Below, one piece after another: positions 36,794-53,127 of a stretch of 64,000 bases of DNA. A program made the position numbers and the translations under genes. The notes below the pieces were generated by a model. It was not told where the DNA came from. It ran no database searches and saw only the letters and a list, made by a program, of their open reading frames with translations. Positions within the stretch are counted from its first letter, which is position 1. Every line of letters begins with the position of its first letter. This DNA comes from Candidatus Brocadia sinica JPN1 (GTDB lineage Bacteria; Planctomycetota; Brocadiia; Brocadiales; Brocadiaceae). Location of the stretch: the NCBI RefSeq assembly GCF_000949635.1, contig NZ_BAFN01000001.1, positions 248,001-312,000 on the forward strand, given 5' to 3'.

Positions 36794-37204
36794 ATGGAGA
36801 AAGAAATGGACGAAGACCGAAAAAAAGGAGTTCAATACTGGCTTGAATCTTCAGAAGATGACTGGAAGGTTGCAAACCACCTTTTTGAAAAAGGGGATTA
36901 TTCATATTCGTTATTCTTTGGACATTTGACTATAGAAAAGGTTTTGAAAGCTATCTATGCGAGTAAACTTAAAGAAACCCCTCCCTATACTCATATGCTT
37001 GTTTATCTGGCAGAGAAGGTATCACTCAGGATGACAGGAGAACAATTAGAACTTCTTGAAACAGTTACCGATTTTAACATAGAAGCAAGATACCCCGATG
37101 AAAAGTTCTCCTTTAAGAAAAAATGCACAAGGAATTTTACCGAAGGGTATCTAATCAAGATCAAGGAGATGAAGGAATGGCTATTGCGACAGATTCAGTC
37201 ATAG
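36794..37204 (+). CDS. HEPN-domain protein (toxin of a HEPN/MNT pair)
   Basis: A 136-residue HEPN-fold protein. It starts with the typical YWLESSEDDWKVANHLFEKGDYSYSLFFGHLTIEKVLKA pattern (about residues 16-55), and the C-terminal helix includes YLIKIKEMKEWL. HEPN toxins of this kind cleave RNA and are silenced by the paired MNT nucleotidyltransferase, which is encoded next and overlaps by 28 bases. The usual RX4-6H motif is not clearly visible in this copy, so activity is uncertain. Confidence 0.85.
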   Translation: MEKEMDEDRKKGVQYWLESSEDDWKVANHLFEKGDYSYSLFFGHLTIEKVLKAIYASKLKETPPYTHMLVYLAEKVSLRMTGEQLELLETVTDFNIEARYPDEKFSFKKKCTRNFTEGYLIKIKEMKEWLLRQIQS

Positions 37205-37509
37205 AAATAGCAAAAAGGTATATTGAGGTACTTGAGAAAAACGGGATCAAGATACGGGAGGCAATCCTCTTCGGCTCTTTTGTAAAGGGAACGGCGAAAG
37301 AATGGAGCGATATTGACGTTGCGCTGGTTTCGCCTGATTTTACAGGAGACAGATTTGAAGATCGGAGGAGGATTGTACCGCTGAGAAGAAAAATAGATAG
37401 CAGGATAGAGCCGATTCCTTTTAGACCAGAAGATTTTTATGATGGAGGGATGCTGGCGGAGGAAATAAAGAGGACAGGATTAAGAATACCAATAAAAGGT
37501 TTAAAGTAA
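37177..37509 (+). CDS. MNT nucleotidyltransferase (antitoxin of HEPN/MNT pair)
   Basis: A 110-residue minimal nucleotidyltransferase. AILFGSFVKGTAKEWSDIDV (about residues 29-48) carries the GSxxxGxxxxxSDIDV signature, and a further acidic strand, RIEPIPF, follows. MNT antitoxins AMPylate their HEPN partner. I chose ATG 37177 because GGAGATGAAGGA lies before it; the frame extends to 37123 inside the HEPN gene. A truncated relative lies at 52502. The cmr genes begin 36 bases after its stop, so it may be transcribed with them. Confidence 0.88.
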   Translation: MAIATDSVIEIAKRYIEVLEKNGIKIREAILFGSFVKGTAKEWSDIDVALVSPDFTGDRFEDRRRIVPLRRKIDSRIEPIPFRPEDFYDGGMLAEEIKRTGLRIPIKGLK

Positions 37510-37545: not shown

Positions 37546-38607
37546 ATGGAATTTAAATTAAAGGCATTGACACCAATGTGGACGGGTGGGGTGGAAAGAA
37601 ATGACAACAGTATTTTGCATTTAACAGGTATCAAGGGTTCAATAAGGTGGTGGTATGAAGTGTTGATACGGGGGCTTGCTGGTTATGCATGCGATCCATC
37701 CGAAGATAACAAGAGATGCACTCTCGAACTTAAAAAATTGAAAGAATTAAAGAAAGAAGGAAAAACAGAAGAAGAGGCTTTGAATTCATTAATTTGCCCA
37801 GCCTGTCAAATGTTTGGATGCACAAACTGGGGCAGCAAGTTTATTCTGCGGATAGACGATAATTCCGGGTCTGTTATTACAAGCATGGTTAAGCGGGTTG
37901 ATCCTTGTACGCTTAAATTCATAGAAAAGAAAGTCTTTACACCTTACGAGAAGAAGCTACTCCATGCGACAATTAAACTTATCGTGGAATATGGTGCTAT
38001 TGGTGGAAAAACCGGATTGAAACCTTCCGAAGTTCCTTACAAAAATTGTGAAAGTTATCGAAAACACAATCATGTTGATTACGGGTTATTGGATTATCAA
38101 AACGAACCGATTGCATCAAGTAAACCAAATAAATTTATTTTTAAGTTAAAAATAAATGAAACCGATTGGCCAAATTTAAGCAATTTCTGGTTTGTGAAAG
38201 GTGCGTATGTAAGTCGGATAGAACATAATAATTTGGCAAACAGAAATACTAAATTCTATGATAACAACGCTTCAGAATTTCAGGTTTTTCTGGGTGGTTA
38301 TATCAAAGACAAAAAAGATAATAATGGGAAAGCGACAAGAAACATCCCCGATAGTTTACAAACAGTGGTCGAAAAGCGAAACCTCCGGAGTGATGGCGAA
38401 AGCAAAAAGATTTTCTCTTTTCATGGGCTCACTCATTGCGATAAGACTCCGAACTGCGTAAAACAGGATTTCCCACCTCGATGTTTTGGATATGGGAGAA
38501 ATGCAAAAGAGCGGGATAATAGTAAGAATGCAATAGAAAGAATTTTAAACGGAAAGAGTATCAGATATGAGACGAAAACAGGACAGGAGGTGTTGGATGA
38601 GCTTTGA
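37546..38607 (+). CDS. cmr1: Type III CRISPR RAMP protein Cmr1
   Basis: A 353-residue RAMP (Cas7-like) subunit of a Cmr effector complex that binds crRNA near its 3' end. It shows FKLKALTPMWTGG at the N-terminus, the Cmr1-type GIKGSIRWWYEVLIRGLAG (about residues 28-46), and a Cys-rich ICPACQMFGCTNWGSKF (about 84-100). A good GGAGGATGC context precedes ATG 37546. It overlaps the next RAMP gene by 11 bases, so the cluster from here to the reverse transcriptase reads as one operon. Confidence 0.9.
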   Translation: MEFKLKALTPMWTGGVERNDNSILHLTGIKGSIRWWYEVLIRGLAGYACDPSEDNKRCTLELKKLKELKKEGKTEEEALNSLICPACQMFGCTNWGSKFILRIDDNSGSVITSMVKRVDPCTLKFIEKKVFTPYEKKLLHATIKLIVEYGAIGGKTGLKPSEVPYKNCESYRKHNHVDYGLLDYQNEPIASSKPNKFIFKLKINETDWPNLSNFWFVKGAYVSRIEHNNLANRNTKFYDNNASEFQVFLGGYIKDKKDNNGKATRNIPDSLQTVVEKRNLRSDGESKKIFSFHGLTHCDKTPNCVKQDFPPRCFGYGRNAKERDNSKNAIERILNGKSIRYETKTGQEVLDEL

Positions 38608-39874
38608 TTGGTATATAAAGAGTAATGAGCAGATTAGATTATTGATAAACATTGCAAGTCTAAACAAACAAATTGCAACAAAGATGCATGAAATAAAAGA
38701 CGCAGCGCAGGATAAGAAAACTCAGTTAAACAAAGAGAAGAAAGATCTTGAAAAAAACGCGGAAAACAAATGGAATGAAGCTTATAAACTAACTCCCTAT
38801 TTTAGCGCCTACTGGAAATCCTTATCTTCTTATTATTTAGCAGAAGACCAACCATTAGCCGATCTTGTAAGAGACAGATACACTAACTTGCAAAGTGGTG
38901 AAGGGAGAGTAAGGATAAAACAGGATATTGAAAGCCAAAGGCTTCTTGATATATTCAATTTTTTTAAGATACCAACGGTAGATATTTCCTTGCTTCTCCC
39001 GTTCTCCTTCTTCCTCCAATTCACCTTCACTCTTGTAAAACCCTATCTTTCCAAAGACGAAGAAGGGTTTTATATCTGCGAAAACCCTGTTAAAAAAGAC
39101 AAAGTCTTCAAGGTTCCAACAGTACCCGGAAGTACCTGGAAGGGGAATATGCGATGGACAGCAGGCAGGTTATTAGAGATGGATGGAAATGTAAACATGA
39201 GATTTAAGAAAAGAATACATATATCAAATTTGTTTGGCAATGAGAACGAAGCAGAAAAGCGATACTTTGATGCGCTTATGCCAGAAAAAAAAGAGGCCTT
39301 TGAGCAAGTGACGAGAACCTTGTTTAACAAAGAAGGACTCAGAAAGGGACGTCTTAATTTTTATCCTACCTTTTTTGACCAGATAAGTCTTGAGGTTATT
39401 AATCCTCATGACCGAAAGACAAAGGCGGGCACAGTGCCCATATATATCGAAAGTGTGCCAGCAGGAGCATCTGGCACTTTTAGTCTGCTTTACGTACCTT
39501 TTGACTTAATGGGCAAGCGCTCAGAAGAAGTTAAGCAACAAGTGTCTGAAGATATAAACTTAGTCTATAATTCTTTAAAAGAAATGATGCTTACTTATGG
39601 TTTTTCTGCCAAAAAAAGCTGCGGTTTTGGGGTAACCGAGAAGGACATTAATGGTATATTTGAAATGTCAGGAAACAAAGATAAGAAACCAACAAATCCG
39701 GAACCAGGACAACCAACACAGACCAAGAAGAAAAAAACGTATTCTAGTTTTAGTGAGCTTCCTGGTTATATACAACCAACCAAACAAGCCAATAGTTTAA
39801 CATTTTCTTCCTTTGAAAAATTGAAAGATATTATAAATCAGGTGAAAGCAGAGGTGATGAAAAATGCTGGGTAA
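38597..39874 (+). CDS. Type III CRISPR RAMP protein (Cmr6/Csm3-like)
   Basis: A 425-residue RAMP-superfamily subunit. The N-terminal 100 residues include a charged coiled coil (IKDAAQDKKTQLNKEKKDLE). The RAMP body has VPGSTWKGNMRWTAGRLLE (about residues 177-195), the VPIYIESVPAGASGTFSLLYV strand region, and a glycine-rich YGFSAKKSCGFGVTEKD near 332-348. A flexible Pro/Lys-rich linker and a small C-terminal segment follow. AGGAGG lies 6 bases before ATG 38597. I cannot assign it firmly to a named Cmr subunit; Cmr6-like is likeliest. Confidence 0.78.
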   Translation: MSFDWYIKSNEQIRLLINIASLNKQIATKMHEIKDAAQDKKTQLNKEKKDLEKNAENKWNEAYKLTPYFSAYWKSLSSYYLAEDQPLADLVRDRYTNLQSGEGRVRIKQDIESQRLLDIFNFFKIPTVDISLLLPFSFFLQFTFTLVKPYLSKDEEGFYICENPVKKDKVFKVPTVPGSTWKGNMRWTAGRLLEMDGNVNMRFKKRIHISNLFGNENEAEKRYFDALMPEKKEAFEQVTRTLFNKEGLRKGRLNFYPTFFDQISLEVINPHDRKTKAGTVPIYIESVPAGASGTFSLLYVPFDLMGKRSEEVKQQVSEDINLVYNSLKEMMLTYGFSAKKSCGFGVTEKDINGIFEMSGNKDKKPTNPEPGQPTQTKKKKTYSSFSELPGYIQPTKQANSLTFSSFEKLKDIINQVKAEVMKNAG

Positions 39875-42800
39875 GCTCAGGACGTATCGCAATCAAATCC
39901 TTTTCATTGAACTTGCAGGCTTATTGCACGATATTGGAAAACTCAGTAAGGTATTTCTTGAATACCGGCAGACATGGCAAGATGATCCTCATGGTTATGA
40001 CAATGACCCTCATGACCACTCATACCTTGAAAGGTATGAGGTATTCAAAGATTTGATACCTTCCGAATTTAAAAAAAAGCCTGATGAAATTCCATCGTTA
40101 GGCAAAGGCGGATGTATGTGTTGGGAACCGGACTTTACCATAGAAAAAGCCGTTCATTTTCATACGAAACCCGGTGATATGGCAATTAATAAAATGCTCA
40201 ACGCTGCTGATGGAATTGATGCTGCTATTGACCGCAATAATCCTCTTTTTAGCGCAGAACAAAAGGACACCGTATTCAGGTCAAATGTCTTTGGCTATGA
40301 AAAGGAACGGATAGTTACTTTCGAAAGCCAGGAGGATGCCAGACAAAAATTGTACAGTTTATTACATTCTAAACTTTCTACGTATTTCAAAGATTTTGAT
40401 GATGAAGGCAGGTTGGGTATTATCAAAGACATAAAGGATGCCTTTCAAAAAGGGATTGCTGATACCACGAGACCTTCAAACGATACGACACTCTGGGAAC
40501 ACTCTTATGCCGTAGCTTCTATTTTGAAGGTATTGGCTGTTCACAACCTCCTTAATGACGATGAAAAAAGCAAAATAGACAATTTTAAAAAGGTAAAATT
40601 CGGGATTCTCGGCATAGGATGGGATGGAATGCGCTTTATATCTTATGGTCAGAAGATTGGAGATATTGTAGGTAGGAAAGAAGTTATTGAAAATATCAAG
40701 CATGAAATAAAAAAGATTGTTGAAGATAAGTATCCAATTGGTAACGAGATTTATGCGGATGATAACGGGATATATTTCATCGTGCCGGTTAACCTTAAAA
40801 ACAATCTCAATAGTATTTGGAACGAGATTGAGAAAGATATATACAAAGCTACTGCTGAGAATTCAGAGGGTGAGATCCAACCATACCTGGTATATATTGA
40901 CCGTTTAAAAGGAAAAGAAAAGACCGAAACTGAATTATCAGAAAACAAGTCTGTATATATGAATACCTTAACACAGTTATGCAGGGTTATAAAGGAGATG
41001 ATTGAGAAGATATCCCATCGTTATGATAGCAATGCTGAAGGATTTAAGGAAAGTAAGGATTTTTTGAAATATGCGAACGGCAAAACCATCTGCCCCATTT
41101 GCCGTCAAAGGCCAGTTGATGATGAGGCAAAGAAAGGTGCGGCAAAGAAAACTAAAGTAAAGAAAAAGTTGTGTAAAATCTGTATCAAGAGAAGAAATAA
41201 CAAAGGAAGGAAGATAGCTGGAGAGACCATTTTTATTGACGAAATTGTTGATGAAAACAGACGGGCCGCCCTGATAGTGGCGAGATTTGTCCTGGATGAT
41301 TGGCTCAGCGGTAACATGGTCAGGAGCCTGTTTATAACTGAGGCCAATGGCTTATGTAAGGAAGTCAGTAATCTTGGAAACGTGAAGCAATTTGAGAATG
41401 ATGAAAATAAAATTAAAAAATTCCTTGAAGAGAAGAAACTATTAAAATTCAACTATGAGAGGATCAGGGCTGATATTGACTCCTTATTTGAAGAAAAAGA
41501 CAAGGAAAGGGCAGAACACACCGTATTTTTGTATGATCAAAGGGCAAAAAAAGGCTCTCTTTTTAGAAATATACACGAGACAAAGGAAAACTGGAGAAGC
41601 CTCCTTGAACAGGCAAAAAATGAAAATGATGCTATTGATATTTATAACCTGCTCAATGCCAAGACTCCAACACCTTCAACAATTTTTGATGTCTGGGAAA
41701 CTACGTTAGAGTTTGTCCAGGATATACCGAAAGATATCTTACGATCTCTGCTGCCCGAAAATAAAAGACTCGAACTCACTGTTGAACTAAAAGAAGGGGA
41801 AAATATTGATAGCTGGGACAAAGGAACAGTTGAAGCAGAGGTAGTATCAACAAAAGAAATTATCGAAATTTTGTATAAAGGACAAGATACTTTCGAGGTT
41901 GTTGGAGAAATGTATTTACATGAATTCTCAGAAAATAAATGGTCCAATAAGCAGAAACCAATTTGCATTAAGATTATTGATAAAGAAAGTGATTCCTTTG
42001 GGAATCTATACGAAATAAAATATTGTAATGCAGGAGATACAACCGTTCCGTATCGTACGATAACTGAGTCTCCCAACCTCTTCATGGCTATTGTCCCTGC
42101 GAAAAGAGCTATTGAGATCTCAGACCTGATTTACCAAAAATACAGAGAACACTTCGGAAAGGTAATGGGAAGACTTCCCTTTAGTATAGGAAATATTTTC
42201 TTTGGAAGCAAAATGCCTATGTTTGTTGTACTTGATGCAGGGAAACGGATGATTGCTAATTTCGATAATCTTGCGGATGACAAAAATAAGAAGGCATTTT
42301 ATGTTAACCAAACACCAGAATATACTGAATCTAATATTAGTTTTGATTTGACATCCTCTCTTGGAAAATTTTGTAAAACTTTAACATGGCAATTGCCTTA
42401 TAAACTTGGCAATTGTGATAAAGACTACCATCATCCGTATTTTATCGTTGGTTCCGGCGGCAAAGACTTGTCCACAGAACGCTTTACGTTCTTTAAAACC
42501 ATTGCGGGAGATGTTATTCACTTCACAGAAATAAAAGAAGGGGACAAACTCTGTGTGCATCCCAATTATTATGATTTTGAGTTTCTCGACTCAAACACGC
42601 GAAGACATGATATTCATCTAAAAGATGGCAGACGAAAATCAAACGTCGCAGCTTTCAAGTCGAAACCGTTCCTTCTTGATGAATTGAATCAGAAGATAAT
42701 GCGCTTATGGAAAGAATTTATGCAGGGCAAACAGCTTAAGGGGATTACGGACACAAAGCTCAGAAACCTGCAATCCCTCTGGTTAACAAAATATCAGGAA

Positions 42801-42992
42801 TGGAATGTGGATATCGGAAATAAACGGTATGAACAATGGGTAAACCTTGTTACATCATCCATTCAAAAGGAATTTAATGAACTTGATAATGAACAGTACA
42901 ACTTACTTCGGGAAACCATTGGTAATGGCTTATTCTTCGATATGCTTGAGCTTTATCTCGGCATATTAAAAGAAAGAATCCAAACGAAATAA
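39864..42992 (+). CDS. cas10: Cas10 large subunit, Csx11-like, GGDD motif missing
   Basis: A 1042-residue Cas10 protein, the large subunit of the type III effector. The HD nuclease motif is intact in ELAGLLHDIGKLSKVF (about residues 13-28), with a further HDHSYLERYE. A zinc ribbon with CPICRQRP and CKICIKRR lies at about 410 and 437. No GGDD cyclase motif is found anywhere: the first palm-like region reads NEIYADDNGIYFIVP (about 292-306) and the second NLFMAIVPAKRAIEI (about 737-751), followed by VVLDAGKRM. This fits the Csx11-type Cas10 of III-B/III-C-like systems. It overlaps the upstream RAMP gene by 11 bases. Confidence 0.88.
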   Translation: MLGKLRTYRNQILFIELAGLLHDIGKLSKVFLEYRQTWQDDPHGYDNDPHDHSYLERYEVFKDLIPSEFKKKPDEIPSLGKGGCMCWEPDFTIEKAVHFHTKPGDMAINKMLNAADGIDAAIDRNNPLFSAEQKDTVFRSNVFGYEKERIVTFESQEDARQKLYSLLHSKLSTYFKDFDDEGRLGIIKDIKDAFQKGIADTTRPSNDTTLWEHSYAVASILKVLAVHNLLNDDEKSKIDNFKKVKFGILGIGWDGMRFISYGQKIGDIVGRKEVIENIKHEIKKIVEDKYPIGNEIYADDNGIYFIVPVNLKNNLNSIWNEIEKDIYKATAENSEGEIQPYLVYIDRLKGKEKTETELSENKSVYMNTLTQLCRVIKEMIEKISHRYDSNAEGFKESKDFLKYANGKTICPICRQRPVDDEAKKGAAKKTKVKKKLCKICIKRRNNKGRKIAGETIFIDEIVDENRRAALIVARFVLDDWLSGNMVRSLFITEANGLCKEVSNLGNVKQFENDENKIKKFLEEKKLLKFNYERIRADIDSLFEEKDKERAEHTVFLYDQRAKKGSLFRNIHETKENWRSLLEQAKNENDAIDIYNLLNAKTPTPSTIFDVWETTLEFVQDIPKDILRSLLPENKRLELTVELKEGENIDSWDKGTVEAEVVSTKEIIEILYKGQDTFEVVGEMYLHEFSENKWSNKQKPICIKIIDKESDSFGNLYEIKYCNAGDTTVPYRTITESPNLFMAIVPAKRAIEISDLIYQKYREHFGKVMGRLPFSIGNIFFGSKMPMFVVLDAGKRMIANFDNLADDKNKKAFYVNQTPEYTESNISFDLTSSLGKFCKTLTWQLPYKLGNCDKDYHHPYFIVGSGGKDLSTERFTFFKTIAGDVIHFTEIKEGDKLCVHPNYYDFEFLDSNTRRHDIHLKDGRRKSNVAAFKSKPFLLDELNQKIMRLWKEFMQGKQLKGITDTKLRNLQSLWLTKYQEWNVDIGNKRYEQWVNLVTSSIQKEFNELDNEQYNLLRETIGNGLFFDMLELYLGILKERIQTK

Positions 42993-43006: not shown

Positions 43007-44142
43007 ATGGCTGACCCTTTTGTAAAAAAGACATACTATGCAATAACCCTCGACCCTGTACACATAGGTACCGGCGGCTATAGACTGGGAAGGGTGGATA
43101 ATACGATAACCAGAGAGCCGGGGACAAATATCCCTAAAATACCTGGCTCAAGCATTTCAGGGGCAACAAGGGCATACACGGCAATGGCAATACAGAGCGC
43201 GAATCAAACAGAAATAAACAAAGATTATGAGATCGATTACAAGAAGTATCTCAAGTGGAAATATCAAAGACTACGGTACAAAATGTCAATAAAAGGAAAC
43301 GGCAATGCCATAATAGAAGTTGATGCTGATAAGAAACCTTTATATGAAGGTGATAATCCTAACGAACCAAAATATTATAGTTGTGCAGGCAAAGGAGCAG
43401 ATGATGGAGAAGGACACTGCGGTGCACCTGATTGTGAGGTTTGTGTCCCTTTTGGCTTTTCAAAGGGCAAAAGTGGTTCAAGCTTTCAGGGGCTCGCACA
43501 GTTTTATGATGCCCGAATTCTGTTCTTTCCTGTACACTCCATGATTGGCCCTGTGTGGGTAACATGCCCATCGGTTTTATCCGAATTTGGAGTTACGTCC
43601 AGCGTGAAAGATCGGAAGTTTAGTGCAATAAACGGAGAACGCAATCAGAAGCTCAATTTCGGATGGATTATGCTGGAGCATGATGCATCAACCAAGATTG
43701 ATTTCTCTGCATTTCCTGATAATAAAAAGTTCTGTGACGTATGCAATGTCATAATGAACAGGGATATCTCGTATCAGATAAACTGTTTTCCCGCATTGTC
43801 AATGACAACCTTGAAGTCCGCACGTCGGTGGCTATTGATCCCGCCACAGGCGCTGCGGAGGAAGGCGCATTATATACCTATGAGGCAATACCACGGGCAA
43901 CGGTTATGTGGTTTGATGTGGTTTACAACAGGCCAGAATATTTTCGAGTCAGGCAAAATGGAATTGACCAGATTATTCAGCATGGTAAAAACACAGAGGG
44001 AGAAGGTTGGAAATGGATTCAGGAAAATGTAGAAAAAGGGCTTCCCCTTATGGAACACATGGGAGTTGGTGCTATGAACACACGAGGAATGGGACGGTTT
44101 AGGATACTTAATATCGGAGGAACAGTTCATGGAAATACTTGA
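43007..44142 (+). pseudogene. cmr4: cmr4 with a -1 frameshift
   Basis: The backbone RAMP subunit Cmr4, split over two frames. The first frame (43007 to about 43765) holds LDPVHIGTGGYRLGRVDNTITREP, IPGSSISGATRAY, and the metal/RNA region CAGKGADDGEGHCGAPDCEVC. The C-terminal Cmr4 half reads in the -1 frame (about 43741-44142): LVSDKLFSRIVNDNLEVRTSV, EEGALYTYEAIPRATVMWF and MGVGAMNTRGMGRFRIL. A stop in the second frame near 43734 limits the shift to about 43738-43770. Either a real mutation, an assembly error or recoding explains it. GGAGGAATTTAAA precedes ATG 43007. The 3' frame overlaps cmr5 by 14 bases. Confidence 0.85.
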
Positions 44143-44539
44143 TATGAAATGCGCTGAGTATGGAAATAAGATCGTGGAAGAAATTGGCAACGCCAGCGAA
44201 AAAAACAAAATAGAATCCATGATTACAAAGGCTTTAGGGGTTCTACAAGAGGATGGAGTCTATGCCTTCGCTCTTTATACGAAATCTAAAAGTGGAGATG
44301 GAGGGGTTGAAAAAATAACAGCCAGGGTTGTTCATGATAAAGCTTGCAAACTGCTAAAAGACGACAAAATCGAGTTATTGCCTGGAAGCTGCAATAGCTT
44401 TCTCGATGATCTTCGTTCCCATTTAGCCAATGATGTTGATAAACTCTTTTTGGCCAAAGAACTCCTTGAGCGAACCCTTGTCTACGCCCGTTACCATGCA
44501 AAGGCATTGAACAGCGTTTCACACAGCGGAGGTGTATGA
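44129..44539 (+). CDS. cmr5: Type III CRISPR small subunit Cmr5 (Cas11)
   Basis: A 136-residue, mostly helical protein with the Cmr5 pattern: about 120-140 residues, EILDMKCAEYGNKIVEEIG at the N-terminus and ALGVLQEDGVYAFALYTKSK (about residues 36-55). Small subunits line the inner face of the effector filament. GGAGG lies 8 bases before ATG 44129. Overlaps both neighbours by a few bases, consistent with stoichiometric co-translation. Confidence 0.8.
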   Translation: MEILDMKCAEYGNKIVEEIGNASEKNKIESMITKALGVLQEDGVYAFALYTKSKSGDGGVEKITARVVHDKACKLLKDDKIELLPGSCNSFLDDLRSHLANDVDKLFLAKELLERTLVYARYHAKALNSVSHSGGV

Positions 44540-45438
44540 TGGGATGGAAGGCATACAGGCTTGTCTATAAGGCAAAAAGCCCTATTCATATTGGCTGGCA
44601 TACCCTCGGCTATATTAAGCTTACTCGATATTATATTACGGGTAGAAATATATGGGGAGCTTTGACCGCAAATATCGTGCGAACCATTTATGGACATGAT
44701 GACTATCACGGTGTGGGAGAATTGTTAAAAAAAGATATACTTGTCAGTTATTTTTATCCCGCAATTGACTATCAAAAGCCCTTTCTTCCAAATTTCCAAA
44801 AAGATGGGCTGTACTACGGCAATTATCCTGTGTCAGATTTTGAGCGGCTCTTTATTCAATCTTATGGGCAGACAGCCGTTCTCCCGGAAAGCAACACCGC
44901 TGAAGACCAATCGCTTCATGAGTCTGATTTTATTTCACATTATATTGAAGAGGAATACACCGAAAGGCGCCAAAATGTATATTTTGTTGGATATGTTTTT
45001 ATTCACAATAACGCGCACTACAAGGGACAAGTGTTAACGCTGGAAACTATAGAAAGATCTCTTATGGAAATATTTATTGGTGGGGATAGAAAATACGGAT
45101 GGGGAAGGTTGATGTTAGAGACAGGGAAAACAGATGAGGTTAAAAACAACACCATCTTTGGCAATCAACTGGATACACAGAATGACTGCTTACAAATTAC
45201 CGTATCAGTAAATAACTGTATTCCGGCACACTTGGAACTAAAAACCGAGGATACTATAAAAGTAAAAGGCGATATTGAACCCCTCCTTGGCTTGGAATGG
45301 TGCACAACTACAAATGATGAGGGGGAAACCGGAACGGGGAAAAAAATAAGTAAAGCGAAGATTTGTTGGGTGCCTGGTTCTATAATGCAAGAAATAAGAC
45401 CATTGAAAATCGGCGAATTTGGTATATTAACCTCATGA
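44536..45438 (+). CDS. Type III CRISPR RAMP protein (Cmr3/Cas5-like or Cmr6-like)
   Basis: A 300-residue RAMP protein. It starts RLVYKAKSPIHIGWHTLGYI (about residues 8-27), followed by RYYITGRNIWGALTANIVR (about 31-49), and ends its first domain with FIGGDRKYGWGRLMLE (about 179-194), a glycine-rich loop. The C-terminal third carries LLGLEWCTTTNDEG. With Cmr1, Cas10, Cmr4, Cmr5 and another RAMP present, this should fill the missing Cas5/Cmr3 or Cmr6 role; I cannot tell which. The ATG overlaps cmr5 (ATGA). Confidence 0.7.
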   Translation: MMGWKAYRLVYKAKSPIHIGWHTLGYIKLTRYYITGRNIWGALTANIVRTIYGHDDYHGVGELLKKDILVSYFYPAIDYQKPFLPNFQKDGLYYGNYPVSDFERLFIQSYGQTAVLPESNTAEDQSLHESDFISHYIEEEYTERRQNVYFVGYVFIHNNAHYKGQVLTLETIERSLMEIFIGGDRKYGWGRLMLETGKTDEVKNNTIFGNQLDTQNDCLQITVSVNNCIPAHLELKTEDTIKVKGDIEPLLGLEWCTTTNDEGETGTGKKISKAKICWVPGSIMQEIRPLKIGEFGILTS

Positions 45439-45449
45439 GGGGGTGTTAG

Positions 45450-46229
45450 ATGGCCAAAAATTTCCAGAGTATCAAAAGTCTTCCCAAAGACATTATCATC
45501 AATCTTGTCACGTCAATTCTTGGTTCCCTCCTTATATCATCAATTCCCTGGTTTTTGGCGGGTAAAGTAAGGTTAAGCATTTTACTTTTTGGATTGTTAA
45601 TGATTGCAATACCCTATCTGCTATTTACCAAGTATAAGAGACTATTCAAACTTATAAAGGCAGGAATGGATGGCTATTATTATTCTTTCGATCTCTCTGA
45701 AAATAGGAAGATATTTCATGAAACGCAAAGTTCTTTCTGCTATCTGGGGATAAGTTCAAACTCTATTCTTGAAGACTTTAGAAAATGGACAGACGAAAGC
45801 ACTTCGATAAACAAATATTTGTTTTTACTTATGGACCCAGAATCACCAGCATTAAAGAAGCAAATTGCATATGAAAAAGGTATTAGCCTCGATACCAATA
45901 TATCTTCACTAAACACCCAATTATTCCAGATTATAGAACATGAGGTTGAGGTGGAAAAAAAACGTATCTACAGTGCGATAGAAGTGCTCAAAAACTTGCT
46001 TCCTTTTAGGAACGGAAAACTCAGTATCCGTCTCCATAAAGAATTTATTCCATGGTGGATGTACCTTCTCGATGATAAAAAAATTTATCTCGGCATCCTG
46101 GAAAAAGGGAAAAGGGGACAGGATTCCCCGGCGATGGTTATTTCAAAAAATCCTGATTACCCTTCGCCTTTTGATCCGTTCAAAAATACCTGGGATAGAA
46201 TGTGGGCAGATGCGGGAAAAGATATTTAA
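45450..46229 (+). CDS. Membrane-anchored PLD-like protein of the CRISPR operon
   Basis: A 259-residue protein not recognised as a known CRISPR ancillary family. Two membrane helices lie near residues 14-38 and 41-61. The cytosolic part shows FCYLGISSNSILEDFRKW and KYLFLLMDPESPALKKQIA (about 122-140), then a strand block SIRLHKEFIPWWMYLLDDKKIYLGIL (in two parts) and FDPFKNTWDRMWADA at the end. This is the pattern of degenerate phospholipase D-like domains: a His in the LH position and an Asp-Asp turn, but no full HxKxxxxD. It lies 11 bases after the RAMP gene, and its stop overlaps the reverse transcriptase start (TAATG). Confidence 0.6.
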   Translation: MAKNFQSIKSLPKDIIINLVTSILGSLLISSIPWFLAGKVRLSILLFGLLMIAIPYLLFTKYKRLFKLIKAGMDGYYYSFDLSENRKIFHETQSSFCYLGISSNSILEDFRKWTDESTSINKYLFLLMDPESPALKKQIAYEKGISLDTNISSLNTQLFQIIEHEVEVEKKRIYSAIEVLKNLLPFRNGKLSIRLHKEFIPWWMYLLDDKKIYLGILEKGKRGQDSPAMVISKNPDYPSPFDPFKNTWDRMWADAGKDI

Positions 46230-47173
46230 TGTGGGATTTTGATTCTCTTTACGAAAGTTTTCATCGTGTCAAGGAAAACCACGGCTGTGCCGGTGTCGAC
46301 GGGGTTACCATTGAACACTACGAAGGCATTCTGGATTTAAACCTCAGAATCATGCAAAGGGAACTGGTCGGGCAAACATACTCACCCCTCCCGCTGCTGA
46401 AAATTCTCGTCGACAAGGGGAATGGCGAGGCAAGGACTCTCTGCATTCCGGCCGTACGGGACAGGATTGTTCAAACTGCTGTATTACACCGGGTAGCGCC
46501 GGCGCTTGAGAAAGAATTCGAAGAATGCAGTTTTGCCTATCGCAAAGGCCGTTCGGTAAAACAAGCGGTTTTTCAGGTAAAAGAATATTACGAACAAGGC
46601 TATCAATGGGTGGTGGATGCCGATATCGATGCCTTTTTTGACAGCGTAGATCACACCCTGCTTATGACAAAAGTGAAACAATATGTCTCTATTCCCTATA
46701 TTCAAAAACTCATAGAACTCTGGTTGAAGGCTGAAATATGGGACGGTGAGTCCCTGTCGACATTACAAAAAGGCATTCCCCAGGGTTCACCCATTTCACC
46801 CGTCCTAGCCAATTTGTTTCTCGATGAGCTTGATGAAGAGTTGCTCAGGAAAGGATATAAGTACGTCCGATATGCAGATGATTTTGTTATTCTGTGCAAA
46901 AGGCCTGAAGATGCAAGGCATGCGCTTCACGTGTCGAAAGAGGCCCTGGAAAAGCTCCTTTTGAAGCTGGACGAAGAACAGATCCTCAGCTTTGAAGACG
47001 GATTCAAATTTCTCGGCGTTACCTTCGTGCGAAGCATGATTATGGTGCCTTTCGACCGCCCAAAAAAGGAGAAAAAAGTCCTGTTTTATCCAAAACCATT
47101 AAATCTTGAAGAATATCTTTATAGAAAAACCGGGTTTGCCACAGAGGACACAGAGACCACAGAGAATAAATAA
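46229..47173 (+). CDS. CRISPR-associated reverse transcriptase
   Basis: A 314-residue reverse transcriptase with retron/group-II-like blocks: GVDGVTIEHYEGI, TLCIPAVRDRIVQTAV (about residues 71-86), FAYRKGRSVKQAV, catalytic DADIDAFFDSVDH (about 130-142), KGIPQGSPISPVLANLFLDE (about 181-200) and YADDFVIL (about 215-222). No maturase or endonuclease domain is present. Its place between the Cmr genes and cas1 fits spacer acquisition from RNA. ATG 46229 overlaps the upstream stop as TAATG; the last 12 residues are encoded by CACAGAG repeat DNA, so the original C-terminus was replaced. The gene that originally followed was probably cas1. Confidence 0.92.
   Translation: MWDFDSLYESFHRVKENHGCAGVDGVTIEHYEGILDLNLRIMQRELVGQTYSPLPLLKILVDKGNGEARTLCIPAVRDRIVQTAVLHRVAPALEKEFEECSFAYRKGRSVKQAVFQVKEYYEQGYQWVVDADIDAFFDSVDHTLLMTKVKQYVSIPYIQKLIELWLKAEIWDGESLSTLQKGIPQGSPISPVLANLFLDELDEELLRKGYKYVRYADDFVILCKRPEDARHALHVSKEALEKLLLKLDEEQILSFEDGFKFLGVTFVRSMIMVPFDRPKKEKKVLFYPKPLNLEEYLYRKTGFATEDTETTENK
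47138..47170 (+). repeat. CACAGAG repeat at the reverse transcriptase end
   Basis: GCCACAGAGGACACAGAGAC and the following CACAGAGAATAAA form the 5' border of the GxxExxY cassette. It also encodes the last residues of the reverse transcriptase. A matching border lies at 47547-47578. Confidence 0.75.
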
Positions 47174-47535
47174 TGGATTCTTTAACGGAACAGATTATAG
47201 CGGCGGCAATAGAGGTTCACCGCACTTTGGGGCCGGGGCTGCTGGAATCTATTTATGAAGAAGCCCTCTGCCACGAATTATCATTGAGACGTATTCCCTT
47301 TGAACGGCAGAAGGAATCGGATGTGATTTACAAGGATAAGATAATAAAGGGACAGAGACTTGATCTGCTTGTGTTTGGAGAGGTGGTGGTTGAGATTAAA
47401 TCCGTACGTAAGATAGAAGATGTATTTACTGCTCAAGTACTCTCCTATCTGAAAAGTACAAAGTTGAAACGGGCATTGTTAATAAATTTTGGTGAGTCAA
47501 GACTCGTTGATGGAATCAAACGAATTTCGTTATAA
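47173..47535 (+). CDS. GxxExxY-family protein
   Basis: A 120-residue member of the GxxExxY family, a small PD-(D/E)XK-like fold of unknown role, common in planctomycetes and cyanobacteria. The name motif is GLLESIY (about residues 22-28). A nuclease-like core RLDLLVFGEVVVEIKSV (about 62-78) shows the Asp and the Glu-x-Lys. Its ATG overlaps the reverse transcriptase stop (TAATG). It is bordered on both sides by CACAGAG repeats and a second, damaged copy is at 52755, so it behaves like a small mobile cassette rather than a native CRISPR gene. Confidence 0.88.
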   Translation: MDSLTEQIIAAAIEVHRTLGPGLLESIYEEALCHELSLRRIPFERQKESDVIYKDKIIKGQRLDLLVFGEVVVEIKSVRKIEDVFTAQVLSYLKSTKLKRALLINFGESRLVDGIKRISL

Positions 47536-47626: not shown

Positions 47627-48997
47627 TTAACAAGCGATTTTATAGGCCAACCCAGAAGGCGTTTTTACCGTCAGGGCGTTTTTGGCAATTGCCAGAAGGT
47701 TTTCAACGGGATTAGCACCTTGTAATTCCGCAGAGCGAAGCAATGTCATAAGGATAGCCTGGGTATTCGCACCTTGAGCAGAACGATTTTGTTGTGAGAT
47801 CTTTCGAGTCAATACCGGCTTTCGCATCTGTTGCTCAGCATGGTTATTATAGGGACTCACGCCCTCATGTTCCAGGAACGTAAAGAGTTCCTCTTTATGG
47901 CGATTCAGACGTTTGATCAGTCTTTGTGCGTCTTTATCCTGATAGGGTGTTATCAAAAACTGTTCAAGCCGATAATGTAATCTCTTTTTCAACCGAAGAA
48001 AGCATTCTGGACTCAAATGGTTCTTTTCCTCCGATAACCGCAATGCGTCTTTGAGCACACGAGAGAGTTTTTTCCGGAAAGCTTTCCATGGAATTGACCG
48101 ATTGTATGTGTCGACTTTTACCAGTTCCGTGAACAGATGATAGAAACACCGCTGCTTTGCCAGTGCGTTTATCTTGTTATAAGCGCCCCAGAAGTCACAA
48201 ATCAGGATGCCCTTGAATAGTCTGCCTAAGAACTTTTTTATGACAGGCGATCCCCGATTGCGTGTTATGAGGTAGTAGCAGAGGGTTTTGGTGGTAAAAC
48301 ACCACAACCAATGGGTTTTCCCGTTCAACCGCCACCCTGTTTCATCTGCGTGTAAAACGGCACTTGCGGAGACTTTTTGTCCAATATCGTTATACCGTGA
48401 TTCCAGGAGTGTTGCAAGGGACTTCCAAGCCTGGGTTAAACCACCGGCGCTTATGTGAAAGTTGAAAAATACGGAAACCATCTTTACGATATTGTTTATA
48501 CTTATGCCGACTAAGTAATGAAGCCAGGCGGTAAAGACAACGAGGCGCAATCCGAGTCGGGCATTTGGCAACGCGTCTGTGACCGTAGGCTGGACAATCT
48601 TTCTACAACAAGAACACCAGGAACCATGAACCGTATGTTCAGTCACGACCGGATCAATCTGTGGGATATCTTCGATGTATCGCTTATACGTTCTTACCGG
48701 ATTTTGCAGTGGCTGGTGGCAATCAGGACAACTCTTGAGGGTATGTGTCTGATAGGCTGTTACTGTTTCCGGCCGTTTCCGGGAAATCCCCTTATGTCCG
48801 TGTTTCCTGCCACAAGGCCGTTTTTTCCTTTTGCCTGCGGGCTTGAGATAAGGGGGTGTCATGCCGGACGGGGTGGTTGGACTCGGTTTATCGCAGAGTC
48901 TGTCATAGTTCTCTGCTTTCTCGGCCAGTATCAGGATGGCTTGAATCGCATCCTCTCTGTCCATCTCTAAAATGGCTATGGCTTCATCCCTGGTCAT
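47627..48997 (-). CDS. tnpC: IS66-family transposase (TnpC type)
   Basis: A 456-residue transposase with an N-terminal helix, a zinc-finger region (CPDCHQPL and SWCSCCRKI) and a DDE core: VLHADETGWRLNG (first Asp), ILICDFWGAYNK (second Asp) and NNHAEQQMRKPVLTRKIS (Glu). This is the IS66 set. I chose ATG 48997 since the upstream frame overlaps the DUF4338 gene without homology; this leaves a 14-base overlap. The last 15 codons lie inside the terminal inverted repeat. The gene looks intact. Confidence 0.93.
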   Translation of the reverse strand: MTRDEAIAILEMDREDAIQAILILAEKAENYDRLCDKPSPTTPSGMTPPYLKPAGKRKKRPCGRKHGHKGISRKRPETVTAYQTHTLKSCPDCHQPLQNPVRTYKRYIEDIPQIDPVVTEHTVHGSWCSCCRKIVQPTVTDALPNARLGLRLVVFTAWLHYLVGISINNIVKMVSVFFNFHISAGGLTQAWKSLATLLESRYNDIGQKVSASAVLHADETGWRLNGKTHWLWCFTTKTLCYYLITRNRGSPVIKKFLGRLFKGILICDFWGAYNKINALAKQRCFYHLFTELVKVDTYNRSIPWKAFRKKLSRVLKDALRLSEEKNHLSPECFLRLKKRLHYRLEQFLITPYQDKDAQRLIKRLNRHKEELFTFLEHEGVSPYNNHAEQQMRKPVLTRKISQQNRSAQGANTQAILMTLLRSAELQGANPVENLLAIAKNALTVKTPSGLAYKIAC

Positions 48998-49865
48998 GAA
49001 CAAGAAACCTCTGGAAATTTCTCTGAAGAGGATACAGGTAGAGTTCCTTAGGCTGTCCATGATACTGATAAGTATTGCCCCGTTTTGCACTCCCTTGGGT
49101 TTTTCCAACACGAATCCAATTGGCTGCCTGATAGCAGGTGCCTTGAAACCGTGCGGTATCAACAAAGGTTTCAGCCAAATACACGGGATGGCCATAGACG
49201 GATTTCCAGTCATGTGACAAACGCCTCAGGGCGATGGATAATACCTTGGATGCAAGGTGTTTGATCATAACCCAGGATGGAATGAGAAATCGCACGTTAC
49301 TTGCAATCAAATGCAAGTGTGTCCGTTTGGTAGACTCATCCCATCCGATGAAACGATCACGGTCTTTGACCTTCCATGCGGCACTTGCCCATCCAAGACA
49401 GGCAACGACCTGATTACCGATACGTACGATGTGCCTGATGTGTTCGCCAACAAGCCGGGGACATCCGAGGTAGTGGTAGTGATAAAGGAGATAACCCCAG
49501 AGGTACCTCTCTTGATGATCTCTTACCACCTGGATCGTCGGGGTTTCATACTCGGTGATGGCACCTTCCAGTGTTCTTTTGACAAAAAGGGGTATCTGAT
49601 CAAAGACCTTAGGTTTGAGATTGTTTTTTGGCCGTATGCGTGGCGGAAGCAAAACCAATCCCTGCTCTTCCAATCTCAGAAGGAGGTCTCGTGCTGCGTA
49701 TTCTTTCAACTTGCCATTGGGCTGCATCCAGTTCCAGCTCTTGCAGAGTTCTCGGGAAATATAACTTCGCCCTCTGAGAAAATGACGCTCAGTGAGAGCC
49801 TTGATAAAGGCTATATCGTCTGCATGCAGTTCTCGTGAACGGTAGTGGAATAGGATAGGCTTCAT
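48984..49865 (-). CDS. DUF4338/DruA-family protein inside IS66-like element
   Basis: A 293-residue member of the DUF4338 family, the family of DruA from Druantia defence systems and of many transposon-borne proteins. The signature parts are visible: LGCPRLVGEHIRHIV (about residues 133-147), LGWASAAWKVKDRDRFIGW (about 158-176), NVRFLIPSWV and ETFVDTARFQGTCYQAANW. It is the upstream gene of the IS66-like element and overlaps tnpC, taking the place normally held by tnpA/tnpB. A role in transposition is more likely than an independent defence function, but this is inference. Confidence 0.88.
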   Translation of the reverse strand: MKPILFHYRSRELHADDIAFIKALTERHFLRGRSYISRELCKSWNWMQPNGKLKEYAARDLLLRLEEQGLVLLPPRIRPKNNLKPKVFDQIPLFVKRTLEGAITEYETPTIQVVRDHQERYLWGYLLYHYHYLGCPRLVGEHIRHIVRIGNQVVACLGWASAAWKVKDRDRFIGWDESTKRTHLHLIASNVRFLIPSWVMIKHLASKVLSIALRRLSHDWKSVYGHPVYLAETFVDTARFQGTCYQAANWIRVGKTQGSAKRGNTYQYHGQPKELYLYPLQRNFQRFLVHDQG

Positions 49866-50084: not shown

Positions 50085-50112
50085 CTCTGTGTCCTCTGTG
50101 CCCTCTGTGGCA
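50085..50112 (-). repeat. Inverted CACAGAG repeat before cas1
   Basis: The plus strand reads CTCTGTGTCCTCTGTGCCCT and on to CTGTGGCA, the reverse orientation of the repeats at 47138 and 47547. A matching copy lies before the cas1 pseudogene (57338-57364). Confidence 0.7.
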
Positions 50113-50124
50113 GAAGAGTTAACC

Positions 50125-51123
50125 ATGGCGAATCTTTATCTGACCGAACAAAATTCCATTTTACGCAAGAGCGGCGACCGGCTTATTGTTCAGAAGGACG
50201 ACGAAACCCTCCTTGAGGTACAGTGCCATAAGATCGATGCCGTGCTCATCTTCGGAAACGTCCAGTTTACCACGCAGGCCGTGCACGAACTCTTTGAACA
50301 CGGTATAGAGATGGCCATTCTCACACGAACGGGAAAACTTATCGGACAAATAACCTCCCCTACGCCCAAAAACATTACCCTGCGTCTCCACCAGTTCAGG
50401 AAATACGGGGATAATGACTTCCGGCTCATGCTCTCAAAGGCGATTGTGGCGGGAAAGATCATGAATTGCTATAATGTCGTCCGCCTGTTTTCGTATAATC
50501 ATCCGGAGATTAACCTTGAAACGGAGATCGCGGCGCTGAAGGCAAAGCCCGGGGATGTGGCATTGGCTACCCAAATTAATCAACTATTTGGCCTGGAAGG
50601 AAGTGCGGCAAAGGTCTATTTTGATGCCTTTGGTAAAATGCTTCTGGGCGGATTCACGTTTCCGGGAAGAAAGAAGCATCCGTCCACCGACCCCGTCAAT
50701 GCGCTCCTTTCCCTGAGTTACACCATGATTTTCAGCGAAATATCATCGCTCCTCGATGGACTGGGATTTGATCCGTACCTTGCTTACTATCACAGCATCG
50801 ACTATGGGCGGGCATCCCTTGCCTCTGATCTCATGGAGGAATTTCGGGCGCCGGTGGCTGACCGGCTGACCCTGAATCTCATGAATAACAGGGTTTTCGG
50901 GCAGGAGGACTTTTACTCAAATCCCAACGAAGGGGTTTATCTCAGACGCGATGCATTGAAACGCTACTTTGTGGAATACGAGGGCATGCTCAACCGTGAG
51001 TTTGTCCGGCAGGAAACCGGAGAGACTACCACGCTGCGAAAGTGCTTTCGTTACCAGGCGGAAAAACTGGCTGCCACTATTCAAAATATTACACCGTATA
51101 TTCCTTTTTTGCAGGAGGTATGA
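50125..51123 (+). CDS. cas1: CRISPR integrase Cas1
   Basis: A 332-residue spacer-acquisition integrase. The N-terminal beta domain begins NLYLTEQNSILRKSGDRLIV. The catalytic Glu is in LEGSAAKVYFDAFGKML (about residues 158-174), the His in YYHSIDYGRASLASDLMEEF (about 221-240) with the last acidic residue in the same block. A frame from 50089 reads repeat DNA, so ATG 50125 is the start. It was probably next to the reverse transcriptase before the cassette and IS insertions. cas2 follows after 1 base. A damaged paralog is at 54568-57324. Confidence 0.96.
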   Translation: MANLYLTEQNSILRKSGDRLIVQKDDETLLEVQCHKIDAVLIFGNVQFTTQAVHELFEHGIEMAILTRTGKLIGQITSPTPKNITLRLHQFRKYGDNDFRLMLSKAIVAGKIMNCYNVVRLFSYNHPEINLETEIAALKAKPGDVALATQINQLFGLEGSAAKVYFDAFGKMLLGGFTFPGRKKHPSTDPVNALLSLSYTMIFSEISSLLDGLGFDPYLAYYHSIDYGRASLASDLMEEFRAPVADRLTLNLMNNRVFGQEDFYSNPNEGVYLRRDALKRYFVEYEGMLNREFVRQETGETTTLRKCFRYQAEKLAATIQNITPYIPFLQEV

Positions 51124-51400: not shown

Positions 51401-51609
51401 AGTACCCCAATGGGTTAACGAAACTCAAAAATCTTCTAAAAAGAGGGGGTGGTTACAGAAAAAATTGTAAAGAATGTACTTATTGATAGTTAGAATAAAT
51501 TTTTTACCAACTTTTAAGGAGGTAATAGGAAAAAAATGACGCTCAAAAAAGGAGGTTACAGAAAATGCCCTTGTAAGTATTTGTGTTTATTATGGTTGGA
51601 ATGGGCGGT
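51401..51609 (+). promoter_or_regulatory. CRISPR leader
   Basis: A 209-base AT-rich stretch between cas2 and the first repeat. It holds two direct copies of GGTTACAGAAAA (51451-51462 and 51554-51565), possible anchoring motifs for Cas1-Cas2, and AAGGAGGT near 51519. Array decay occurs at the opposite end, which supports this side as the leader. Confidence 0.7.
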
Positions 51610-52031
51610 GTGTGAATCATTGACCTGATGAATAAGGGATTGCGACCCAATAATAATTTAGATAATCTCTGTTTAATGGATATGTGTGAATCATTGACCT
51701 GATGAATAAGGGATTGCGACAACATAACCCTGAATTTACTATGATGGAGTTGTATCGTGTGAATCATTGACCTGATGAATAAGGGATTGCGACGCGGTAC
51801 AATTTTCTCGCACATAAAGCCCCGCTCGGTGAGTTGTGTGAATCATTGACCTGATGAATAAGGGATTGCGACCAAGCTGATTCGGGTCAACTCGGGAGAT
51901 AGCGGTTTTTTTGTTAAGTGTGAATCATTGACCTGATGAATAAGGGATTGCGACTTCTACTGCGGCGCCAACGGTAATTGCTAATGCTGCTGCAACACGT
52001 GTGAATCATTGACCTGATGAATAAGGGATTG
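51610..52031 (+). CRISPR. CRISPR array, 6 repeats and 5 spacers
   Basis: Five identical 37-base repeats (GTGTGAATCATTGACCTGAT, then GAATAAGGGATTGCGAC) start at 51610, 51684, 51757, 51836 and 51918. A sixth starts at 51999 and keeps only its first 33 bases. Spacers are 37, 36, 42, 45 and 44 bases, the variable range common in type III. The last 8 repeat bases, ATTGCGAC, would form the crRNA 5' tag. It lies directly downstream of cas2. No spacer matches anything I noticed in this window. Confidence 0.97.
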
Positions 52032-52501
52032 ATCACAGGGAGCAGTGACCAGTGACCAGATGACAGGGAAAAAAAGCTAATCTACTAGCTGATATCTGGC
52101 AACTGGAAACTGGTTACCGAGAACGGCTTGATGAATAAGGGATTGATCACAGTGGCCAGTGGTCAGAGGCCAGATGATAGTTGGAATTTAGATAATTGGT
52201 TTTCTGAAATCTGGAACCTGGCAACTGGCACCTGCGAATGGCCTGATGAGACAGTGACCAGGGGCCAGAGACCAGTGGCCAGATGTCAGGGGAATGATAA
52301 GGGATTGAAACGAGACGGGAAGAAGGATGAGGGAACGCGGGCAGAGAGACGAAGGGACGAGGGAGGTAAAATCGTGAGAGACGTGTCCGTGAAAAGATAC
52401 AAAATTATCTCGTACACGGACAACAATCACGATTCAAAATAAACCTGCAGGACATCGTGGTTATGAAGCATAGCATTGGAAAGACAAAAGGAGTTGTATC
52501 A
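52032..52501 (+). repeat. Decayed distal part of the CRISPR array
   Basis: Repeat fragments recur beyond the array: TTGATGAATAAGGGATTG (52128-52145), CCTGATGA (52242-52249) and GATAAGGGATTGAAAC (52296-52311). The last keeps the common type III ATTGAAAC ending. Between them lie low-complexity pieces such as CAGTGACCAGTGACCAGATG and CTGGCAACTGG. No intact gene is seen before 52502. It looks like eroded array mixed with a different dispersed repeat. Confidence 0.6.
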
Positions 52502-52731
52502 ATGGTTGTTGTCTCAGATGAAGTACTAGAAATAATTAAAAGGTTTATCGACATGGTCTCCGCCAGTGGACTGCATCTGGAGAGGGCTCTATTGTTTGGT
52601 TCCCACGCAAAGGGAACTGCGAACACATGGAGTGATATTGACGTTACCCTGGTATCGAAAGATTTTACCGGTATCGGGTTTTATAACAGGAAACGAGTGA
52701 ATCCTTTTATCATGAAAACAATGATTTTGCC
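52502..52731 (+). pseudogene. Truncated MNT nucleotidyltransferase
   Basis: The first roughly 75 codons of an MNT-type nucleotidyltransferase, with RALLFGSHAKGTANTWSDID (about residues 28-47) and LVSKDFTG, related to the gene at 37177. AAAGGAG lies before ATG 52502. After about 52729 the frame runs into CACAGAG repeat DNA and the GxxExxY cassette, so the rest is lost. No HEPN partner precedes it. Confidence 0.8.
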
Positions 52732-52754
52732 ACAGAGGCCACAGAGAATAAATT

Positions 52755-52996
52755 ATGGATTCTTTAACGGAACAGATTATAGCGGCGGCAATAGAGGTTC
52801 ATCGTATCCTGGGACCAGGCTTATTGGAATCTATTTACGAAGAAGCCCTTTGTCATGAATTTTCGCTCAGAGAAATTCCCTTTGAACGGCAGAAGGAATT
52901 GGATGTGATCTACAAGGATAAAGTCATCAAAGGGCATTGTTAATAAATTTTGGTGAGTCAAGACTCGTGGATGGAATCAAACGTATTTCGTTATAA
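52755..52996 (+). pseudogene. GxxExxY copy with 121-base internal deletion
   Basis: Begins as a close copy of the gene at 47173 ([20 protein letters not shown]). After the codons for DKVIKG it jumps to the region encoding [20 protein letters not shown] in another frame. It is 121 bases shorter than the intact copy. The junction AAAGGGCATTG lies at a shared GGG, pointing to a simple deletion. The nuclease-like DLLVFGEVVVEIKS core is gone. It is preceded by GCCACAGAGGCCACAGAGAA and followed by AGCCATAGAGGTCA. Confidence 0.88.
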
Positions 52997-53127
52997 CTTT
53001 AATTTTAGCCATAGAGGTCATATCGCAGCAAAGCCGCAACCAAAAGGAAATTAGCCACAAAGACACCAAGACACGAAAAAAAACTTACAAAAAAAAGAAG
53101 TTTTTACAGAGTAATACTATAGAGAAT

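Follow-up and report, generated by a model that had tools for sequence, protein, structure and literature searches.

A predicted membrane-anchored pseudo-phospholipase D protein encoded between the type III-C effector and reverse transcriptase genes of a Brocadia CRISPR locus

Background

Type III CRISPR effectors of the TM-CARF and TM-SAVED kind, among them Cam1 and the proteins that PADLOC names CARF_2M and SAVED4--SAVED_TM, consist of a short membrane hairpin joined to a cytosolic domain. Type III-C systems have been reported to be devoid of cyclase sites and to have no known effectors (PMC11229360). CRISPR adaptation modules with a reverse transcriptase (RT) contain the RT gene, cas1, a cas2-like open reading frame (ORF) and an array, and the pairing of such a module with a III-C effector is regarded as a possible exception (PMC5513706). 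Among proteins with a phospholipase D (PLD) fold, Nuc (1byr) and Zucchini/MitoPLD (4ggj) carry the HxKx4D motif, and FAM83A (4urj), FAM83B (5lzk) and TrmB have no known PLD activity.

In this work we analysed a stretch of 64,000 nucleotides from Candidatus Brocadia sinica JPN1 (contig NZ_BAFN01000001.1, positions 248,001 to 312,000), hereafter the window, in which both kinds of module lie side by side with a gene of another type between them. We refer to the product of this gene as X. A search of open-licence papers yielded no account of a PLD-like membrane protein tied to type III-C.

Results

The genes of the locus lie in the order cmr1, cmr6, csx11/cas10, cmr4, cmr5, cmr3, X, RT and GxxExxY, followed by an IS66 transposase on the opposite strand, cas1, the cas2-like ORF and a short CRISPR array (Table 1). 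The locus was assigned to type III-C on the basis of a TIGR02682 match above cut-off, the absence of GGDD and the presence of cmr1, cmr6, cmr4, cmr5 and cmr3. The HD motif of Csx11 reads LLHDIGK, and YADDNG looks, by sequence, to sit at the place equivalent to GGDD; an HD motif without GGDD agrees with an earlier sequence-only reading, in which this Cas10 seemed unable to signal by cyclic oligoadenylate (cOA). A gene pair encoding HEPN and nucleotidyltransferase (MNT-like) proteins lies upstream of cmr1 (window 36794-37509), and similar pairs are found in the related locus L075 (6410-7776).

Table 1. Features of the III-C/RT locus, in window coordinates
Feature	Position	Strand	Basis
cmr1	37546..38607	+	family scan
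cmr6	38567..39874	+	family scan
Csx11 / Cas10c; HD motif present, GGDD missing (YADDNG instead)	39864..42992	+	TIGR02682, E 3e-118
cmr4	43007..44032	+	family scan
cmr5	44129..44539	+	family scan
cmr3	44536..45438	+	family scan
Gene of protein X, 259 aa: predicted two-helix membrane hairpin and cytosolic pseudo-PLD domain	45450..46229	+	ORF list, hydropathy, models, Foldseek
Predicted membrane hairpin, about residues 13-61	45486..45632	+	hydropathy and predicted helices
Predicted pseudo-PLD domain, about residues 95-257	45732..46220	+	AlphaFold2 model and Foldseek
PWWMYLLDD, probably where the PLD motif HxKx4D would lie; no catalytic H or K	46050..46076	+	sequence; 23 family rows scanned for the motif
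TAATG, overlap of the X stop with the RT start	46227..46231	+	X stop TAA and RT ATG, one base in common
CRISPR-type reverse transcriptase, YADD intact	46229..47173	+	family scans, RT tree
GxxExxY / PDDEXK_3 gene with CCACAGAGG-type repeats on both sides	47173..47535	+	family scan
cas1	50089..51123	+	family scan
cas2-like ORF, 91 aa	51125..51400	+	translation; resembles 91-aa ORFs after cas1 in related RT loci
CRISPR array, six repeat copies, last degenerate	51597..52035	.	repeat search

The region between RT and cas1 also contains mobile sequences. The GxxExxY gene with its CCACAGAGG-type repeats, or parts of this unit, are seen at window positions 47173-47535, 47149-47354 and 52731-53020 and at 9913-10320 of L001, a contig of Brocadia sp. 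AMX1; the RT C-terminus runs into one such repeat. The unit also lies between RT and cas1 in L075 and L082. Parts of it recur beside the CRISPR array, and it is probably a mobile insertion in the RT-cas1 module. Between GxxExxY and cas1 the IS66 transposase (window 47627-49213) has been inserted.

With the last base of the cmr3 stop at 45438, X begins after a gap of 11 bases, and it overlaps RT by TAATG. The coordinates thus bear out the placement first proposed, and the motifs LLMDPESPAL and RLHKEF...LLDDKKIYLG, which had been singled out, both occur in the translation. L001 closely matches the window and has the same gene order, except that the IS66 element is missing. Its X is 80% and 92% identical to that of the window across the two parts of the protein, and the X/RT coordinates (8966/8969) imply the same TAATG-type overlap. 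At L001 8695-8703 the orthologue is split into two frames, a run of A being 7 instead of 8 long, which reflects either a genuine mutation or a fault in the assembly. Between the two orthologues, dN/dS was 0.17 for residues 1-168 and 0.05 for residues 171-259, within the range of RT, cas1 and cmr3 (the cmr6 value, an alignment artefact, was left out of the comparison). Such values, similar to those of the neighbouring cas genes, point to purifying selection and show that X is no chance ORF.

Hydropathy analysis delineated two hydrophobic segments in X, at residues 11-29 and 32-50, and a first full-length structure model placed helices at residues 13-36 and 42-61; this model, with a pLDDT of 52.7, was kept out of the fold search. 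A positively charged stretch follows the two segments, which by prediction places the C-terminal domain in the cytosol. Hydropathy, model helices and charge are therefore all in line with the two membrane helices and cytosolic domain originally suggested.

Comparison of X with Pfam, NCBIfam, PADLOC, PHROGs and PDB sequences gave nothing reliable, and no named CRISPR or defence family was matched, as had been anticipated. The domain was modelled by AlphaFold2 from a 23-row family alignment, a plasmid-derived row being left out of the structure-prediction input, with a pLDDT of 82.4 and a pTM of 0.81. Its top Foldseek matches in the PDB were PLD superfamily or PLD-like structures (4urj, E 2.4e-6; 1byr, E 7.5e-5). 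The PLD-like matches comprised FAM83A, Nuc, Zucchini, FAM83B, TrmB and phosphatidylserine synthase, with moderate TM-scores of about 0.4-0.5, and a viral fold library gave marginal PLD-like matches only. A motif scan found HxKx4D neither in X nor in any of the 23 family rows; with a PLD fold and no such motif, X is by sequence a pseudo-PLD. Judged by its modelled fold, the domain belongs to the PLD superfamily without the catalytic motif, in accordance with the degenerate PLD-like domain suspected from the sequence.

A wider family came to light through a weak match in a single related genome; in it, L016 and an Azospirillum protein have the C-terminal half of X in common. Iterated profile searches, covering one genome-collection scan and one phylum, reached about 20 relatives, nearly all from Planctomycetota; many weak matches of an early search were discarded as chance (response regulators, wrong frames). 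In most relatives at least two hydrophobic segments at the N-terminus precede this domain. Two members have a tandem domain, and one (L097) is without a membrane segment. In the viral contigs, phages and plasmids searched, no close relative was found except one Azospirillum plasmid protein.

Outside the two Brocadia loci, none of the ten settings of X relatives examined was a CRISPR context. One relative belongs to a prophage, where it is flanked by the terminase and portal genes (L035, 1257-2135), and another in a prophage-like region (L036, 5605-6564), which suggests an accessory gene carried by phages. Others have chromosomal settings (L048-L051) or adjoin ammonium-transporter-like and other housekeeping genes (L107-L110), and the window genome itself encodes a 530-aa paralogue of X elsewhere. 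The wider family is not CRISPR-specific; the link to CRISPR is limited to the two close Brocadia orthologues. Finding homologues mostly outside CRISPR loci had been named as what would refute the first reading, and this is what the family as a whole shows, but not the two close orthologues, which are CRISPR-linked. X after cmr3 was also missing from five other III-C loci (L012-L014, L033 and L034, from Planctomycetes and from cyanobacterial and Thermus plasmids). The ORF after cmr3 in one of these (L012, 15730-16446) is DarT-type (DUF4433)-like by eye.

X could be a captured member of a general family of two-helix pseudo-PLD proteins, with a job unrelated to CRISPR, for example in membrane-linked sensing or regulation, carried in the operon as cargo or found there by chance. 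The non-CRISPR settings, including ammonium-transporter-like neighbours and prophage-like regions, the paralogue in the same genome and the frameshift in L001 speak for such a capture. The X/RT overlap kept in two loci, a selection on X comparable to that on cas genes, and a position otherwise held by CRISPR membrane receptors (see below) argue against it, and we consider it unlikely, though a serious alternative.

The position of X was compared among related RT loci. Ten further genomes of the same class contain relatives of the RT at 59-86% identity, eight of them with upstream sequence. In all eight readable loci a TM-CARF or TM-SAVED protein is encoded directly before RT, in most cases together with Csx3; these assignments come from PADLOC and Pfam scans for L075, L076, L077, L079, L081, L084 and the second copy in L080, and from likeness to the scanned proteins for those of L083 and the first of L080. 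The same eight loci have a Cas10-like ORF with GGDD, a call made by scan for the L084 protein (Cas10a) and by motif, sequence and neighbours for the others. In the two X loci, both from Brocadia, no GGDD, CARF, SAVED or Csx3 was found, and X fills the slot. So clean a split between Cas10 type and slot content would be expected once in 45 by simple counting, but the loci are related and not phylogenetically independent. A second set of truncated TM-CARF and Csx3 genes lies in L080 (12667-16090), beyond the cas1-cas2 module and repeats.

The RT tree groups the X loci, at 99/99 support, with the TM-SAVED locus of a further Brocadia, and this group falls inside a fully supported CRISPR-RT clade, with deeper branches not resolved, where all other readable loci are of the TM-CARF type. 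Since the RTs of the X loci nest among TM-SAVED and TM-CARF loci, X is probably the newcomer in the slot. Homology of X to TM-CARF was rejected (hhalign probability 1.9%), and no CARF or SAVED domain was matched in X by PADLOC, Pfam or NCBIfam.

These sister loci bear on the two roles first envisaged for X, a direct effector or a membrane anchor for acquisition. The former gains positional support from the TM-CARF and TM-SAVED proteins in the same slot; it is not separable from the latter, in which X would hold the RT-Cas1 machinery at the membrane. X does overlap the RT gene and not that of an effector subunit, and a membrane protein precedes RT in the sister loci as well, both of which fit an anchor. 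The protein in question, however, is there a CARF or SAVED receptor of the interference-signalling type, often with Csx3 between it and RT, which makes an acquisition anchor improbable, though it too is a serious alternative.

A second type III locus of the window genome (L114, G000:C1:576000-595900) encodes CARF-like proteins together with a GGDD Cas10, and no RT-like ORF was noticed in its ORF listing. The cell may therefore contain cOA. X might then act in trans as a receptor, of a new sensor fold, for cOA made by L114. Pseudo-PLD folds such as the sugar-binding domain of TrmB, itself a fold match of X, do bind small ligands. Against this, X is unlike CARF, has no CARF or SAVED match and shows no link, positional or other, to L114, and we regard such a receptor as very improbable.

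Discussion

We tentatively favour, at somewhat less than an even chance, that X is a membrane-anchored pseudo-PLD accessory of the III-C/RT CRISPR system, acting independently of cOA in place of a cOA-activated receptor. Its slot is the one that encodes such a membrane receptor (TM-CARF or TM-SAVED) in sister loci, and the missing cyclase site of Csx11 makes action without cOA most likely. The cytosolic pseudo-PLD domain might sense activation of the Csx11 complex, either by touching the complex itself or by binding a product, be it nucleic acid or nucleotide; the two-helix hairpin could then perturb the membrane or tether the complex to it.

The operon position and overlap in two Brocadia loci, purifying selection, the modelled PLD fold without HKD and the equivalence of the slot argue for this accessory role. 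It is weakened by the broken frame in L001, by most relatives lying outside CRISPR and by the absence of X from five other III-C loci, and the agreement of Cas10 type with slot content comes from few, related cases, with only two X loci, both in Brocadia, in one genome-collection scan and one phylum; further loci that combine X, RT and Csx11 may be present in other phyla. That X would be the first membrane effector known for type III-C, with a pseudo-PLD sensor standing in for CARF or SAVED and triggered without cOA by a cyclase-less Cas10, is rather doubtful. Type III-C has no known effectors (PMC11229360), and X offers a direct, testable candidate for defence without cOA signalling. Its replacement of cOA receptors exactly where the cyclase has been lost suggests an RT module that changes its membrane partner according to the Cas10 with which it is joined. 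X may thus represent a novel type of membrane partner in CRISPR systems.

Compared with known systems, the locus has the gene content of other CRISPR RT adaptation modules, here joined to a III-C effector. The predicted fold of X resembles those of Nuc and Zucchini/MitoPLD, at only about 10-12% identity and without their HxKx4D motif, and those of FAM83A, FAM83B and TrmB, at similarly low identity (about 10-12%). Pfam DUF5919 (PF19319) did not match X itself and gave marginal matches in 7 of the 23 family rows (best E 0.0023), far below reliable membership. With the TM-CARF and TM-SAVED effectors X shares a predicted membrane hairpin, a cytosolic domain and the slot before RT; it differs from them in that its cytosolic domain is PLD-like and not CARF or SAVED, and in that the Cas10 of its locus has no cyclase site.
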